DNA of 24,923 bases from Candidatus Poribacteria bacterium. Lineage in GTDB: Bacteria > Abyssobacteria > SURF-5. The stretch spans positions 1-24,923 of the forward strand of contig JACRIR010000268.1 in the NCBI GenBank assembly GCA_016215705.1, written 5' to 3'. The notes under the pieces were generated by a model that saw nothing but the letters and a program-made list of their open reading frames with translations, ran no database searches and was not told where the DNA came from. Positions within the stretch are counted from its first letter, which is position 1; each line of letters opens with the position of its first letter. The translations under genes and the position numbers were made by a program. Below, one piece after another: positions 18,882 through 24,470 of this stretch.

Positions 18882-21800
18882 TTATTTAATCCTGACGCAG
18901 CGAAAACCCATGTCGAAGTACCGAGTGTTCGGGAAGTCCCCGGTACGGAAAGAGCACCGGGCAGCCTCACGAATGTCGCCCCACGAGCCGCCCCGGAGCA
19001 CCGGGCCAGCCTCATCAGGCGTGAAATCAACTCTCTGCTTCTTGGATTCATAATCCGAGCATGTCCATTCATCCACATTTCCTGCTAAATCAGTCACGCC
19101 TTCCGGCGTTGCTCCTTTGGCAAAGATCCCAGCCGCAGAGGTCTTGCGGATTTCTGATTCCCGCGTGTTGCAGCAATTCTCGCACCAAGGACCCCACGGA
19201 TACTCTCGCCCTTCCTTGCCCGCAGCGGCCGCCTGCCATTCCTGCTCGGTCGGCAGCCTGTATGTGTACCCATCCTTCCTCGAAACGCCAAGCCATCGGC
19301 AGAAAGCATCCGCCTCGTACCAACTCACTCCCACAGCCGGTGAGTTCGGGCATTTCCACGCCCGGTCATGCCAGTAGTCAGGCTCTTGACGCTTCTCCTT
19401 ATCCACCCACTTCCATCCTTCCGGTGTCCAGAACTCTTCCTTCTTGTATCCCCCTGCCTTGATAAACTCATCATACCATTGATTGGTAACCGGATACTTA
19501 CTTATTTCAAAAGCTGAAAGGCTCGCCTTGCCCAACTCTTTGAGCTTGTATTTGCTCCCTTCAATCGCGACAAACTCCTTCAAATCCCGCGTATCGCCCA
19601 ACCACCCCAGCGTATCGCCCGCATCAGCCAGAACCTTTGCCTCTTCCTGTTCTTTGATTACCTCTAACAAGCGCTCTTGAGCTTTTTCTGCCACCTGTTT
19701 GTCTCGTCTGTCTGGTTGGATGTCAAACAACGCTTTCGCCGCCAAACGCCAATGTCTAAAGGGTGGCTGCTCATCCCGTTTCAGTTCATCTTCCACTATG
19801 CCGTTGGCCTCAGCTCGATTCGAGTTGCTCAGATGACCAATAAACAGTCGAAGCGTTTCCTCAAACCATTCATCGTCCCAATACTTCTTAATGGCCTGTG
19901 CAAACTCCTGCGACCGCTTCCGCTCAACTATCTGTCTTGCCGCCAGGAATTCCTGAAAGCTCAAGTGCCAGAAGCTGTGCTCTGCGCCGTCCAACCTGAG
20001 AAGTCCGCAGTGCTGCTCGATTTCATCGAACTCTTCTCCCAATCGCGCAATATACTGGCGTTCTGTCTCGTCTGCTTTCGCAGGGTGTTGTTCTGTCATG
20101 AGGTCGACAGCGAATCTCTTGCTGAACGTCTTTTGTTTCTCGCGATGGCTCTCATAGGCTATCTTCATCAGAAGGTCTAAGACGGCGCCGGCGTTATCGT
20201 GAAAACGTTTATATATCAGGTTGCTGACAATTCTCTCGTACAATTCGGCCCGCTGTTCCGGCAGTTTCTTATCGTAATGATACAGTATGCAGGCAGCGGT
20301 CAACATAAGCGGTGTGCTCATTAGCTCTTCGCCGCGCTGATGCTCATATATCTCGGAGAACATATCTTCCTTGCTTTTCCCCTTACCAAGCAACTCAGGG
20401 TCCCACTCGAACCATTTTCCAATGAAGAGCCGCACCTGGTCGCTGTTCAAGGAACTGATGTCCGCACACTTGTCGCCGAGTCTGTCGGTGACTGTCGCGT
20501 CGATTCCGTGCGGTCGGCCCGACAGAATCATTTTGCTCCGTGGAAATTCGCTTCTGAAGGACACCAGACAATCAATTGTGAACTCCCGGAATGGCGCCTC
20601 GATCTCATCGAGTCCGTCAACAAGGAATATCGCCTTGCCTTCTCGACAGAATGCTTTGATTAATTCAATATCCAATCCGTCACACTTCCGTCGAAAATAT
20701 TCGGTCAAAATCTCTTCCGCTGCCTGCGCGCCCGGAACCAATCCCTTCCTCCGAGGAATGATCTCGGGGATGTCTCTCAGAAATATCAGAACCGGCAAAT
20801 ACTCGTTGAGTCCGTATTCATTCTTTTTCCTGATGATGGAGTAAGCCAGATGCTTCATCAGCGTCGTCTTACCCGAACCCGCCTGGCCCCTTATGACCAG
20901 CCACTCGCTCGAGGCTGCCAACTCTTCAATATCAACTCCTTCTCGTTGTCTTTTGCCCATGCGAATCTTGATGCCCTCATTTGTTGCCTTCATCTCTTCC
21001 ATGCGAGTTGTGTTGAGCGGGATGAACATTTCCGGAAGCTTCAGGCTGATGATCGAACTGTCTCTGCTGTCAACAAGTTTGCTGATATCCATCCTCTCGC
21101 ATTGCGTTATGATCCAGTCTTTGTAGTTATCCGGGATTTCGAGCGAGAGGATGGGAACTCCTCGTTCTGAAGACGCCGCCTGCTCGTGAACTATCCGCTC
21201 ACACACGTCACCTGCAATGCTCTTGATCTCTTGCGCCACTAGAACTTCCTCTTGCAGATATACTCGCAATCCGATAATCAGAGGTTCAAGCGCGCAAGCA
21301 GAGGGTGATTCCTCCAGTAGCTCCAAAACCGCCCTGCCACGTCCTGCGGCTGCCGCAAGAATGCAGGAATCTATCACTTGACTCAAATGGTCTTCGGTCT
21401 TCTTCGGATCAGCGAGAACTTTCTCGATTTCAGTCCATTTGTCTCCGTTACCTTTTACCTCTGAGGACGCAAGATCGTCATAGAAGGCCGACATGAATCT
21501 CACAACTGCTTCCAGCCTGCCGGAGGGTTGCCCCCTCCTTCGCATAAGATGATAGATGTTGTACATTCGCTCTGTAACCTGATACCACTTCTTCTTTCCC
21601 TTCTGTCTTGCAGCTTCGACCATCCCTCTTTCAACAAGCCTGTTTAGGAAAGAACTGGCTTTGTTGATTTCGATTCTCGCGGCGGTTGCGACTTCCCGCG
21701 CCGTGGCGGGGTCCCACAAGTCCGCCAATGCCACAAATACTCTGCGCTCGATCGCAGGCAACCCGTCGAGATGGCCCTTGAAATACTCCGTGTGATCATC

Positions 21801-22616
21801 CACAAGCTGAGCTATGTCCTTCATTAGTTCAGGAAAAGAAGTCCTGGCGGCAAGCGTGGAAAAAACGGCCACGAGGCGAGCATTGCCGCCCGTTAATATT
21901 TGGATCGGCCTTACATACTGGTCAATCGGCTCCTCTCCAGTCATCGCCTTCCACAAAGCCGAACATTCCTCGATATTCAATGGTTGCAACTCATGTATCT
22001 TGAACATCTGATACATGGCCTTTCCGGAACTTTCAATCTCCTCAAACCGGCTCACTGCTGTCCCCAAAAGCATCAGCCGCGGCTCGTTCTGCAACGTGTG
22101 GCGCAGCACCCATGCGTCGTCATCACTCATCTGCTCACCTAATAGCATGTTAAGGTTCTCGACGACGAGCAGGATGCGCTTTCCCTGTTCGTCAGCAAAA
22201 TCCATCAACTGCGCCAACGCGCGGTGGCGCAGTCTGTCCTCATCGCTTTCATTGACCAGTTCTCGGTAAGTCCTTTCCCATCCTTCCACCCCTGTTTGTT
22301 TCGCCAAATGAAAGAGCGCCTCAAGCCACAACTCTCCGGCAGAATGAACATTGTAGCTTTCCTCGGAAAATATCAGCGGATACCACTTCTCCCTGAGTCC
22401 AGTCTTCTCTTTGATTTCCGCGGCCACTCGAAGGGCCAAAGTAGTCTTGCCCGTTCCGCGGGCTCCAATAATGATAACGTGCTGGTTGGACTGTCCCGTA
22501 TTTTGACTTATGGTCTCCAGGATCAGATGCAAGTCCATATGGCGCGCGACAAATAATCGAGTCAGTTCTTCAGCCGACAGAAAAGCAGGATTATATTTCA
22601 TAACTCTCGTGGCCAT
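18882..22616 (-). CDS. Dual-NTPase STAND-type protein: ATPase-winged helix, NACHT NTPase and FGE/C-type-lectin domain
   Basis: The protein is 1244 aa. Residues 1-280: AAA/Orc-like ATPase with Walker A GARGTGKT (51-58) and Walker B ILLVVEN (148-154). 285-355: winged helix (AREVATAARI...LVERGMVEA). 360-560: helical linker. 575-900: NACHT NTPase with Walker A GQAGSGKTT (577-585), Walker B AIFLVDGLDEI (662-672), SGR sensor (699-701) and the WHLSFQEFLAA helix (883-893) typical of NACHT. 900-1012: helical/HEAT-like. 1013-1244: formylglycine-generating-enzyme fold (YPVTNQWYDEF, VGVSWYEADAFCRWL, YRLPTEQEWQAAA, DLAGNVDEW, LRGGSW, GFRCVR). The two catalytic cysteines of FGE are absent around RGGSWGDIREAARC, so this end is more likely a binding (lectin-like) domain. 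It starts 3 nt after the upstream AAA gene. STAND NTPases commonly sense invaders and trigger effectors, so defence is inferred. Confidence 0.88.
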   Translation of the reverse strand: MATRVMKYNPAFLSAEELTRLFVARHMDLHLILETISQNTGQSNQHVIIIGARGTGKTTLALRVAAEIKEKTGLREKWYPLIFSEESYNVHSAGELWLEALFHLAKQTGVEGWERTYRELVNESDEDRLRHRALAQLMDFADEQGKRILLVVENLNMLLGEQMSDDDAWVLRHTLQNEPRLMLLGTAVSRFEEIESSGKAMYQMFKIHELQPLNIEECSALWKAMTGEEPIDQYVRPIQILTGGNARLVAVFSTLAARTSFPELMKDIAQLVDDHTEYFKGHLDGLPAIERRVFVALADLWDPATAREVATAARIEINKASSFLNRLVERGMVEAARQKGKKKWYQVTERMYNIYHLMRRRGQPSGRLEAVVRFMSAFYDDLASSEVKGNGDKWTEIEKVLADPKKTEDHLSQVIDSCILAAAAGRGRAVLELLEESPSACALEPLIIGLRVYLQEEVLVAQEIKSIAGDVCERIVHEQAASSERGVPILSLEIPDNYKDWIITQCERMDISKLVDSRDSSIISLKLPEMFIPLNTTRMEEMKATNEGIKIRMGKRQREGVDIEELAASSEWLVIRGQAGSGKTTLMKHLAYSIIRKKNEYGLNEYLPVLIFLRDIPEIIPRRKGLVPGAQAAEEILTEYFRRKCDGLDIELIKAFCREGKAIFLVDGLDEIEAPFREFTIDCLVSFRSEFPRSKMILSGRPHGIDATVTDRLGDKCADISSLNSDQVRLFIGKWFEWDPELLGKGKSKEDMFSEIYEHQRGEELMSTPLMLTAACILYHYDKKLPEQRAELYERIVSNLIYKRFHDNAGAVLDLLMKIAYESHREKQKTFSKRFAVDLMTEQHPAKADETERQYIARLGEEFDEIEQHCGLLRLDGAEHSFWHLSFQEFLAARQIVERKRSQEFAQAIKKYWDDEWFEETLRLFIGHLSNSNRAEANGIVEDELKRDEQPPFRHWRLAAKALFDIQPDRRDKQVAEKAQERLLEVIKEQEEAKVLADAGDTLGWLGDTRDLKEFVAIEGSKYKLKELGKASLSAFEISKYPVTNQWYDEFIKAGGYKKEEFWTPEGWKWVDKEKRQEPDYWHDRAWKCPNSPAVGVSWYEADAFCRWLGVSRKDGYTYRLPTEQEWQAAAAGKEGREYPWGPWCENCCNTRESEIRKTSAAGIFAKGATPEGVTDLAGNVDEWTCSDYESKKQRVDFTPDEAGPVLRGGSWGDIREAARCSFRTGDFPNTRYFDMGFRCVRIK

Positions 22617-22619
22617 AAC

Positions 22620-23870
22620 TTACATCTTTCTGTCCGAGGCGGGAATGAAGAACAATCTGTGCCGTCCGTCCCACCAGTCCCTTATCAACGTCGATTTGAA
22701 TGCAAAACCGGTCGGCGCGCGCGACAGATAGCCGTCATACTCGAGGATATCCATTATTTCGCGCAACACGTCATTCGGTCTTCGATTCTTGAATTCATAT
22801 CCCCTTAACAAAATGCGGGCGGAATCCATCGACAAATGACCTGTCACCGCCGCCTCAGTCAAGAGTTCCAAAGCAAGCGGAAACAATTCCTCGCCCAGCA
22901 CCCATCCCAGACGTTCTTCGAGTTGGGCCAGTTCTGCGTGCCCTCTTGTGCTTAGCATCCGGTCATTGTAAACCCCCAAAACATCATCCCTCGAACACTC
23001 CATATTGCCTTTGCATCTGCAATTATCATAAATGTGTTCAAAGAACATCTGAACGTGTTGCGGTATGAAACATCCCAGTTTCTCCAAAACTCGCTCCTTT
23101 GCCCCTTCCTCAAATGTGACACCGGCCCCGTTTGCTAACGCCTGAAGACAACCCTCGGCCGTATCGGTATCCCATGGCTTCAGCTCGAAGGGCGTAAAGG
23201 TTGTCACCGTGCCGCTGAGACCCGCCTGCCTGAGAATCGGCTCCAGTCCGATGGAACCGGTCAGCACGATTCTGATCGTGCCTTTATGCTTGATGCTCGA
23301 CTCTCGGAACCAACTCATGAATTCGTCCGCCAATTGTAACCGCTCAGATGTTATTCTGTGATCTGCCCCCTTCAGTATGCGGTTCACAAGGAGCGTTACC
23401 TCATCGATGAAGATCGCAACCGGCTTCTCGCATTCACCCAGCGCACACAAGAGATTCTCCCCTTTTGCTTTCCAGTTTCCGGCGGAGACCCCTGCGTTTA
23501 GCGCAATCTTGATGTCGTGAACGTCGAGAGAATCAATGGAGACTTCCACTCTTTCAAGAATGTTACTGAATACTCGCTTTGTCTTTTGCCAAATACTCGC
23601 GTGGGGGCGAGTGGCAACACTCAATTCCACTACCGCGTCGGAGGGCGATTTCGATGCTTGCAGGTCCAAATATAAGCACACATAGCGATCTCCCAAACGT
23701 CGGGCCACCTCGTGCAAAAGGCTTGTCTTCCCCATCCTTCTTGGAGCCAGAAGCTGAATGTGCGCGCCTTCATCCAATTTCTCGATAAAAAGCTCGATTT
23801 CCCTTTCTCGGTCCCAAAAAAAATCCCTCCCCGTCACGTAGTTGTTGTGCGCCGGCCTCAGCTTCTCCAT
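22620..23870 (-). CDS. AAA ATPase (archaeal-type ATPase family) of the NTPase operon
   Basis: The protein is 416 aa. FFWDREREIELFIEKLDEGA leads into Walker A LAPRRMGKTS (41-50). Walker B is VAIFIDEV (151-158), sensor 1 LTGS (203-206), and the C-terminal third is helical with a winged-helix-like end (ARILLRGYEF...GYLSRAPTGFAF). This is the arrangement of the archaeal-type P-loop ATPases often found beside toxins, nucleases or STAND proteins. GGGAGG 7 nt upstream supports the ATG. It is the first gene of a two-gene operon: the 1244-aa protein starts 3 nt after its stop. The two ATPases may act together, for example as loader and sensor (inference). Its promoter and operator-like sites lie just upstream. 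Confidence 0.85.
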   Translation of the reverse strand: MEKLRPAHNNYVTGRDFFWDREREIELFIEKLDEGAHIQLLAPRRMGKTSLLHEVARRLGDRYVCLYLDLQASKSPSDAVVELSVATRPHASIWQKTKRVFSNILERVEVSIDSLDVHDIKIALNAGVSAGNWKAKGENLLCALGECEKPVAIFIDEVTLLVNRILKGADHRITSERLQLADEFMSWFRESSIKHKGTIRIVLTGSIGLEPILRQAGLSGTVTTFTPFELKPWDTDTAEGCLQALANGAGVTFEEGAKERVLEKLGCFIPQHVQMFFEHIYDNCRCKGNMECSRDDVLGVYNDRMLSTRGHAELAQLEERLGWVLGEELFPLALELLTEAAVTGHLSMDSARILLRGYEFKNRRPNDVLREIMDILEYDGYLSRAPTGFAFKSTLIRDWWDGRHRLFFIPASDRKM

Positions 23871-23894
23871 AAACCGCCTCCCAACACATAGCTT

Positions 23895-24046
23895 ACCAAC
23901 ATAATTGTTGCCTAACTCATTATACCACCACTAAGCCGCCTCGTCAATATAATACCAACAACAATGTTGCCAATATTCTTGTTGTACACTGCACAGCATT
24001 CGAAATGATATGCCTCAATTAGATGATTACCAACATATTCGTTGCA
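23895..24046 (-). promoter_or_regulatory. Cluster of four 18-bp operator-like sites
   Basis: Plus-strand copies are ACCAACATAATTGTTGCC (23895-23912), ACCAACAACAATGTTGCC (23954-23971), GCCAATATTCTTGTTGTA (23969-23986) and ACCAACATATTCGTTGCA (24029-24046). The shared core CAACA-4nt-TGTTG is an imperfect dyad, as expected for a dimeric DNA-binding protein. Centres are 59, 15 and 60 bp apart. The first covers the predicted transcription start and the second abuts the -35 box. Confidence 0.7.
23919..23947 (-). promoter_or_regulatory. Sigma70-type promoter of the NTPase operon
   Basis: On the minus strand, TTGACG (23947-23942), 17 nt, TATAAT (23924-23919). The start site would fall near 23911, inside the first operator-like site, about 40 nt before the ATG at 23870. 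Confidence 0.7.
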
Positions 24047-24427: not shown

Positions 24428-24470
24428 GGAAAATCGGGGACATGATGCCCCATCGTGTCCCCGATTTTCC
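24428..24470. repeat. REP-like palindrome (variant of short subtype)
   Basis: GGAAAATCGGGGACATGATG, CCC, CATCGTGTCCCCGATTTTCC: a 43-nt palindrome with outer arms matching perfectly and one mismatch in the inner stem. It belongs to the same family as 3252-3290 and 9563-9605. Confidence 0.75.

Follow-up and report, generated by a model that had tools for sequence, protein, structure and literature searches.

The window (the whole stretch of 24,923 nucleotides that was analysed) harbored a two-gene NTPase operon on the minus strand, with four dyads of the type CCAACA-N4-TGTTGG upstream of it (starts at 23896, 23955, 23970 and 24030). Genes, predicted promoter and sites were distributed as follows.

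18882..22616, minus strand: P2, 1244 aa, with an AAA_16/ORC-CDC6-like ATPase, a TrmB-like wHTH, a NACHT and a C-terminal FGE-sulfatase domain (Pfam and homologues)
21576..21764, minus strand: wHTH of P2 (residues 285-347, PF01978 TrmB), recognition-helix segment INKASSFLNRL, the proposed DNA reader
22620..23870, minus strand: P1, first gene of the operon, a 416-aa P-loop ATPase (ATPase_2-like) with a helical/winged C-terminal region (Pfam and the L161 orthologue)
23881..23886, plus strand: half-site CCAACA, 15 bp gene-proximal of site 1, read from the sequence and recurring in orthologues
23896..23911, no strand: site 1 (site B), CCAACATAATTGTTGC, closely following the -10 box and lying over the predicted transcription start, centre about +8
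23919..23924, minus strand: predicted -10 box TATAAT (sequence and promoter geometry script)
23942..23947, minus strand: predicted -35 box TTGACG, 17-bp spacer (sequence and promoter geometry script)
23955..23970, no strand: site 2 (site A), CCAACAACAATGTTGC, ending 7 bp before the -35 box, centre about -51
23970..23985, no strand: site 3, CCAATATTCTTGTTGT, directly abutting site 2 in 15-bp phase
24030..24045, no strand: site 4, CCAACATATTCGTTGC, 60 bp upstream of site 3

The 16-bp dyads displayed one mismatch to CCAACA-N4-TGTTGG in sites 1 and 2 and two in sites 3 and 4. Against the four dyads observed, no more than one arose in any of 5000 shuffles of the local 230 bp that preserved dinucleotides, and three dyads within 150 bp did not occur in any of 400 shuffles of the whole window. 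The original prediction had described 18-bp copies of a CAACA-4nt-TGTTG dyad with centres 59, 15 and 60 bp apart; all four proved real, as a cluster that shuffling never reproduced. The half-site at 23881, exactly 15 bp from site 1, was an extra site absent from that description, and with it included the steps along the five sites were 15, 59, 15 and 60 bp, close to a 15-bp lattice. The layout proposed at the time (one site over the start, two adjoining the -35 box and one upstream) was confirmed around the predicted minus-strand promoter TTGACG-17-TATAAT, placed between sites 1 and 2.

When the window genome (5.47 Mb) was searched for the motif, as had been suggested, single sites were not enriched over a reversed-pattern control, while paired sites were unique to this operon, with no second pair elsewhere in that genome. 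A regulon in the window genome was rejected on both grounds.

Similar sites were recovered in distant genomes. A blind scan of 85k genomes for two sites 30-60 bp apart, a DNA pattern holding no protein information, returned 32 loci, almost all of them repeats inside long open frames. The two noncoding hits that were followed up both lay directly upstream of NTPase homologues (P1 and P2 in L161, P2 in L176). In L161 (Syntrophobacteraceae), the sites directly preceded orthologues of P1 (49% identical) and P2 (56% over the N-terminal 400 residues), with two dyads flanking TTGACA-17-TATATT much as in the window, and in L176 (Desulfobacterales) a dyad was found 31 bp before a P2 homologue, without P1. 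In viral contigs, the two-site pattern occurred in 92 stretches, all but one within frames of at least 110 codons, and was taken as coding repeats. A profile of the P2 N-terminus was searched in 395 genomes of the phylum of L161, 389 of the class of L176 and 55 of the class of L161, and plasmids were searched with P2 itself. P1 and P2 were not found in the two other genomes compared from the phylum of the window (three genomes in all).

Among the 21 homologous loci closest to the window (Desulfobacterota, alphaproteobacterial plasmids and the window itself), which are related by descent so that their site counts are not independent, sites with at most one mismatch numbered 35 in the 350-bp stretches preceding the operons (7350 bp in total) and 4 in the other 188565 bp. 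Three of these four belonged to the usual operator array of L249, where the gene start was misassigned by the script. An unbiased dyad search (4096 half-sites by 7 spacers) in 15 loci not used to discover the motif ranked CCAACA-N4-TGTTGG best, in 13 of the 15, against 1-2 in shuffles. The comparison of homologous upstream regions that had been proposed as a check therefore displayed recurring CCAACA dyads, at near-fixed promoter positions in most loci, and this conservation in orthologous promoters gave strong support to the operator cluster of the NTPase operon. In L206 the only site was weak and close to the gene, in L207 the sites were dispersed, and none were found in the upstream regions of L251 and L208. 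Single sites being no commoner than control patterns in the genomes checked would suit sites that are non-regulatory, arising by chance or local repetition, but their conservation, position and enrichment in homologous loci ruled this out, leaving it a negligible probability. An apparent decayed second copy of the P1 start, with CCAACA half-sites of its own, was present at 3720-3830 of L161 and suggests a duplication of the promoter region.

Promoters and start sites in all loci were consensus predictions, relative to which the centre of site A fell at -49 to -52 in most of the 15 loci scored (-51 in the window) and that of site B at +2 to +5 (+8 in the window). Spacing from A to B was mostly 51-55 bp (about 5 turns) in orthologues, making the 59 bp of the window an outlier. 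The near-60-bp spacing of 5.7 turns, initially read as a sign of cooperative looping, was thus atypical, and that claim was not established. At least nine loci had extra half-sites or dyads exactly 15 bp away, and near-consensus -35/-10 boxes were present in many of the scored promoters. L248, L253, L287 and L288 deviated in one geometry measure or another (L248, L287 and L288 in spacing), and consensus prediction found no good promoter in L287 and L288. Promoter-relative positions and 15-bp phasing appeared, for the most part, to be the features held constant across orthologues.

The ATPase of P2 matched PF24389 (ORC-CDC6-like; 38.1 bits, cut-off 27) and its wHTH matched PF01978 (31.2 bits, cut-off 25.6), with AAA_16 and NACHT both above their Pfam cut-offs as well, while the match of P1 to ATPase_2 was below the curated cut-off. 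TPR was found in 9 of 10 P2 relatives scanned, the window P2 having NACHT-FGE instead. A search of solved structures with the P2 profile gave generic P-loop/AAA+ matches only, and no specific NCBIfam name was found for these NTPases. AlphaFold2 models built with 2-3 sequences (pLDDT 60 for P1 and 52 for residues 1-400 of P2) were too poor to judge the wHTH. At the C-terminus of P2 (18882-19700), the FGE-sulfatase domain resembled C-terminal sensor domains that are mutated by diversity-generating retroelements in other bacteria. Contig C52 of the window genome carried two stretches that match the last 120 bp of the P2 gene at 71-73% identity.

P2 was the only gene common to all loci compared (20 examined). 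Binding of the sites by P1, or by a P1-P2 complex with P2 alone insufficient, would agree with P1 being co-encoded in 14 of the 20 and with the possible winged region in which it ends, its C-terminal part being conserved. However, seven loci without linked P1 (L176, L205, L206, L207, L287, L288 and L289) kept the sites, and they fell into two separate lineages of the P2 tree (the Agrobacterium/Sphingobium plasmids, and L176 with L205-L207). A tblastn of P1 against all plasmids gave no match to the Agrobacterium or Sphingobium records. Involvement of P1 in binding is accordingly rated improbable.

An unlinked host transcription factor, controlling the operon as a member of a wider regulon, had been offered as a candidate alongside the winged-helix proteins of the operon itself. 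It would be in line with the earlier remark, correct for the window, that no conventional regulator gene adjoins the sites, and with an XRE-cupin regulator encoded just upstream in four Desulfobacterales loci. The other loci sharing the motif nevertheless lacked this XRE gene, paired sites occurred nowhere else in the window genome, exact dyads in three genomes (G039, G004 and G281) were found only at this operon among the matches listed, and operator sequence changed with the P2 subfamily while its position was kept. An unlinked factor is thus disfavoured and very improbable. P2 was the likeliest binder, as it was common to all loci, the lineages without linked P1 kept CCAACA sites and XRE-cupin was present in four loci only. 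The candidacy of the operon's own winged-helix protein appears supported for P2 by shared gene content, tree and recognition helix, and the sites are probably operators of P2, bound by P2 dimers for autorepression. The XRE-cupin gene was divergent from P2, in Desulfobacterales loci only (L176, 1-393; upstream in L205-L207), and two extra CCAACA dyads were located between it and P2 in L176 and L205.

More distant P2 homologues without CCAACA carried dyads of their own. ACAATA-N4-TATTGT was found in six loci at -25 and +2 (L261 having three sites, at -52, -25 and +2), ACTATA-N4-TATAGT in three copies at -52, -25 and +2 on a Moraxella plasmid, and TACAAC-N6-GTTGTA in five loci near -68/-52 and -2/+14. 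GCAAC and ATAACA operator types occurred at 16-bp steps in other P2 subfamilies, and L252, inside the clade of the window, displayed CCATCA-N4-TGATGG twice, 54 bp apart. No recognisable dyad was found for many of the most distant P2 homologues. Operator types were separated on a maximum-likelihood tree of P2 N-termini and paired with distinct P2 helices: VNKASSLLNRL with CCAACA, VNQASTQLTRL with CCATCA, QSKAVSAQLGQL with ACAATA, PSKTVSAQLVEL with ACTATA and PPQQISSLLKRM with TACAAC. Operator type thus tracked both the P2 tree and the wHTH recognition helix; since operator and helix both follow phylogeny, their match is suggestive, short of independent co-variation. If P2 is indeed the binder, these naturally matched helices and operators would provide material for decoding winged-helix specificity. 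On a Moraxella plasmid (L290, 3268-4019), an IS5-family transposase gene lay just upstream of the P1-P2 homologues, the related plasmid L187 carrying an intact triple operator there.

We infer that P2 binds these sites, represses, switches with nucleotide or ligand and serves in defence, along the following lines. P2 dimers would recognise CCAACA half-sites with the winged helix C-terminal to the ATPase domain, and would occupy a dyad that abuts the -35 box, a second covering the start of transcription and additional half-sites at 15-bp phase. Bound P2 would block RNA polymerase, and the positions of site B over the start and of site A against the -35 box fit such promoter occlusion. Cooperative contacts through the NTPase domains, between dyads about 5 turns apart and along the 15-bp half-sites, are plausible; looping between the flanking dyads is conjecture. 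The sensor part of P2 (TPR in relatives, NACHT and FGE here), together with its nucleotide state, would presumably release the DNA on a signal, which could plausibly be an invading phage or other element, and the sensor P2 and its partner P1 would then be made in quantity. As in autorepressed operons, the operator overlapped the predicted start site and was kept together with the P2 gene across loci. P2 might instead bind and activate, like MalT or SARP-LAL, or switch between activator and repressor by nucleotide state, with site A recruiting polymerase and site B tuning output. The NTPase-plus-sensor build shared with STAND activators and the location of site A just upstream of the -35 box would be compatible with this, but site B covered the start site in nearly all loci and the near-consensus boxes of many promoters favour repression, so that activation seems unlikely.

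MalT, AfsR and SARP-LAL proteins activate transcription and carry a terminal DNA-binding domain of LuxR or SARP type. Pfam scans of P2 displayed no such terminal domain, the TrmB-like wHTH at 285-347 being the only one. The likeness to these STAND-type or related regulators (MalT, PMC4381067; AfsR/SARP, PMC10936776; SARP-LAL, PMC5930380) lies in the union of NTPase, TPR-type sensor and DNA-binding domain in one polypeptide, and in arrays of short repeats at the promoter. P2 shares with STAND/LAL proteins a NOD-type P-loop NTPase (AAA_16, NACHT) and a TPR or similar sensor, but its wHTH is placed between NTPase and sensor, and the dyads lie over the predicted start of its own gene. CapW and BrxR are WYL-domain repressors of CBASS and BREX, and CapW structures suggest that a ligand releases the repressor (PMC9122588, PMC9122601). 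They act, as proposed here, on palindromic or inverted-repeat operators in a defence promoter, but as separate small WYL proteins, whereas in this operon the large sensor NTPase would itself be the repressor; Pfam scans of the window P2 and its relatives detected no WYL domain. Orc1/Cdc6 initiators likewise have an AAA+ ATPase followed by a winged helix. P2 differs from them in its attached sensor and in its sites, which did not mark a replication origin but flanked the sigma70-type promoter of its own operon, as they did in most close homologues.

NACHT/STAND proteins with a C-terminal FGE domain are putative invasion sensors in accounts of NTP-dependent conflict systems and DGR-diversified FGE sensors (PMC7159879, PMC10907252). 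Those accounts mention no operators or promoters, with one passing mention of wHTH/HTH each. Neither these operators nor a regulatory role of P2 turned up in a literature search that lay mostly outside subscription papers, and a P2-type sensor controlling its own gene is apparently undescribed.

The neighbours of P2 on the Sphingobium plasmid were a cyclase and an effector of Pycsar (PADLOC E 8e-91 and 5e-86), and on the Agrobacterium plasmid two Pycsar-type cyclases and an E1-E2 protein were encoded divergently from it. With P2 adjoining Pycsar genes on plasmids, and with NACHT-FGE proteins suggested to sense invasion (PMC10907252), at least some members of the P2 family probably serve in defence. 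No named defence family fits P1 or P2: PADLOC gave no match for P1 or for two TPR-type P2s, and for the window P2 only partial P-loop-type matches (best mad8, 4e-11 over 35 residues). Downstream of P2 (18057-18515), a nucleotidyltransferase showed weak AbiEii-like matches, and AbiEi/AbiEii genes were also present near P2 on the Sphingobium plasmid (L288).

Taken across loci, the sequences give about even chances to a widespread family of sensor NTPases, linked at least in part to anti-phage defence, in which each member would be its own repressor, the layout being kept nearly to the base while operator and helix diverge together. If true, this would explain how unannotated NTPase-TPR and NTPase-NACHT operons are silenced as a class. 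Sensor and repressor would then form a single switch, so that an activated sensor would also be made in larger amounts, and the cognate operators would offer an easily tested read-out for the signal sensed by these proteins.

Other repeats were located near the end of the window and in the genome. A 20-nt inverted repeat (24428-24470, beginning GGAAAATCGGGGACATGATG), 95% complementary with a 3-nt loop, lay in a long noncoding stretch and looks like a REP-type element or hairpin, and degenerate repeats of the type CTTCGTGGTGAATTTCTTTTT extended from 24590 to the contig end at 24923. An identical 18-mer, TAACAAAAAGTTCGTTGC, occurred five times in genome G000, on contigs C5, C81, C181 and C260 (loci L037, L042, L047, L048 and L057), and is apparently another repeat family, unrelated to the operators.
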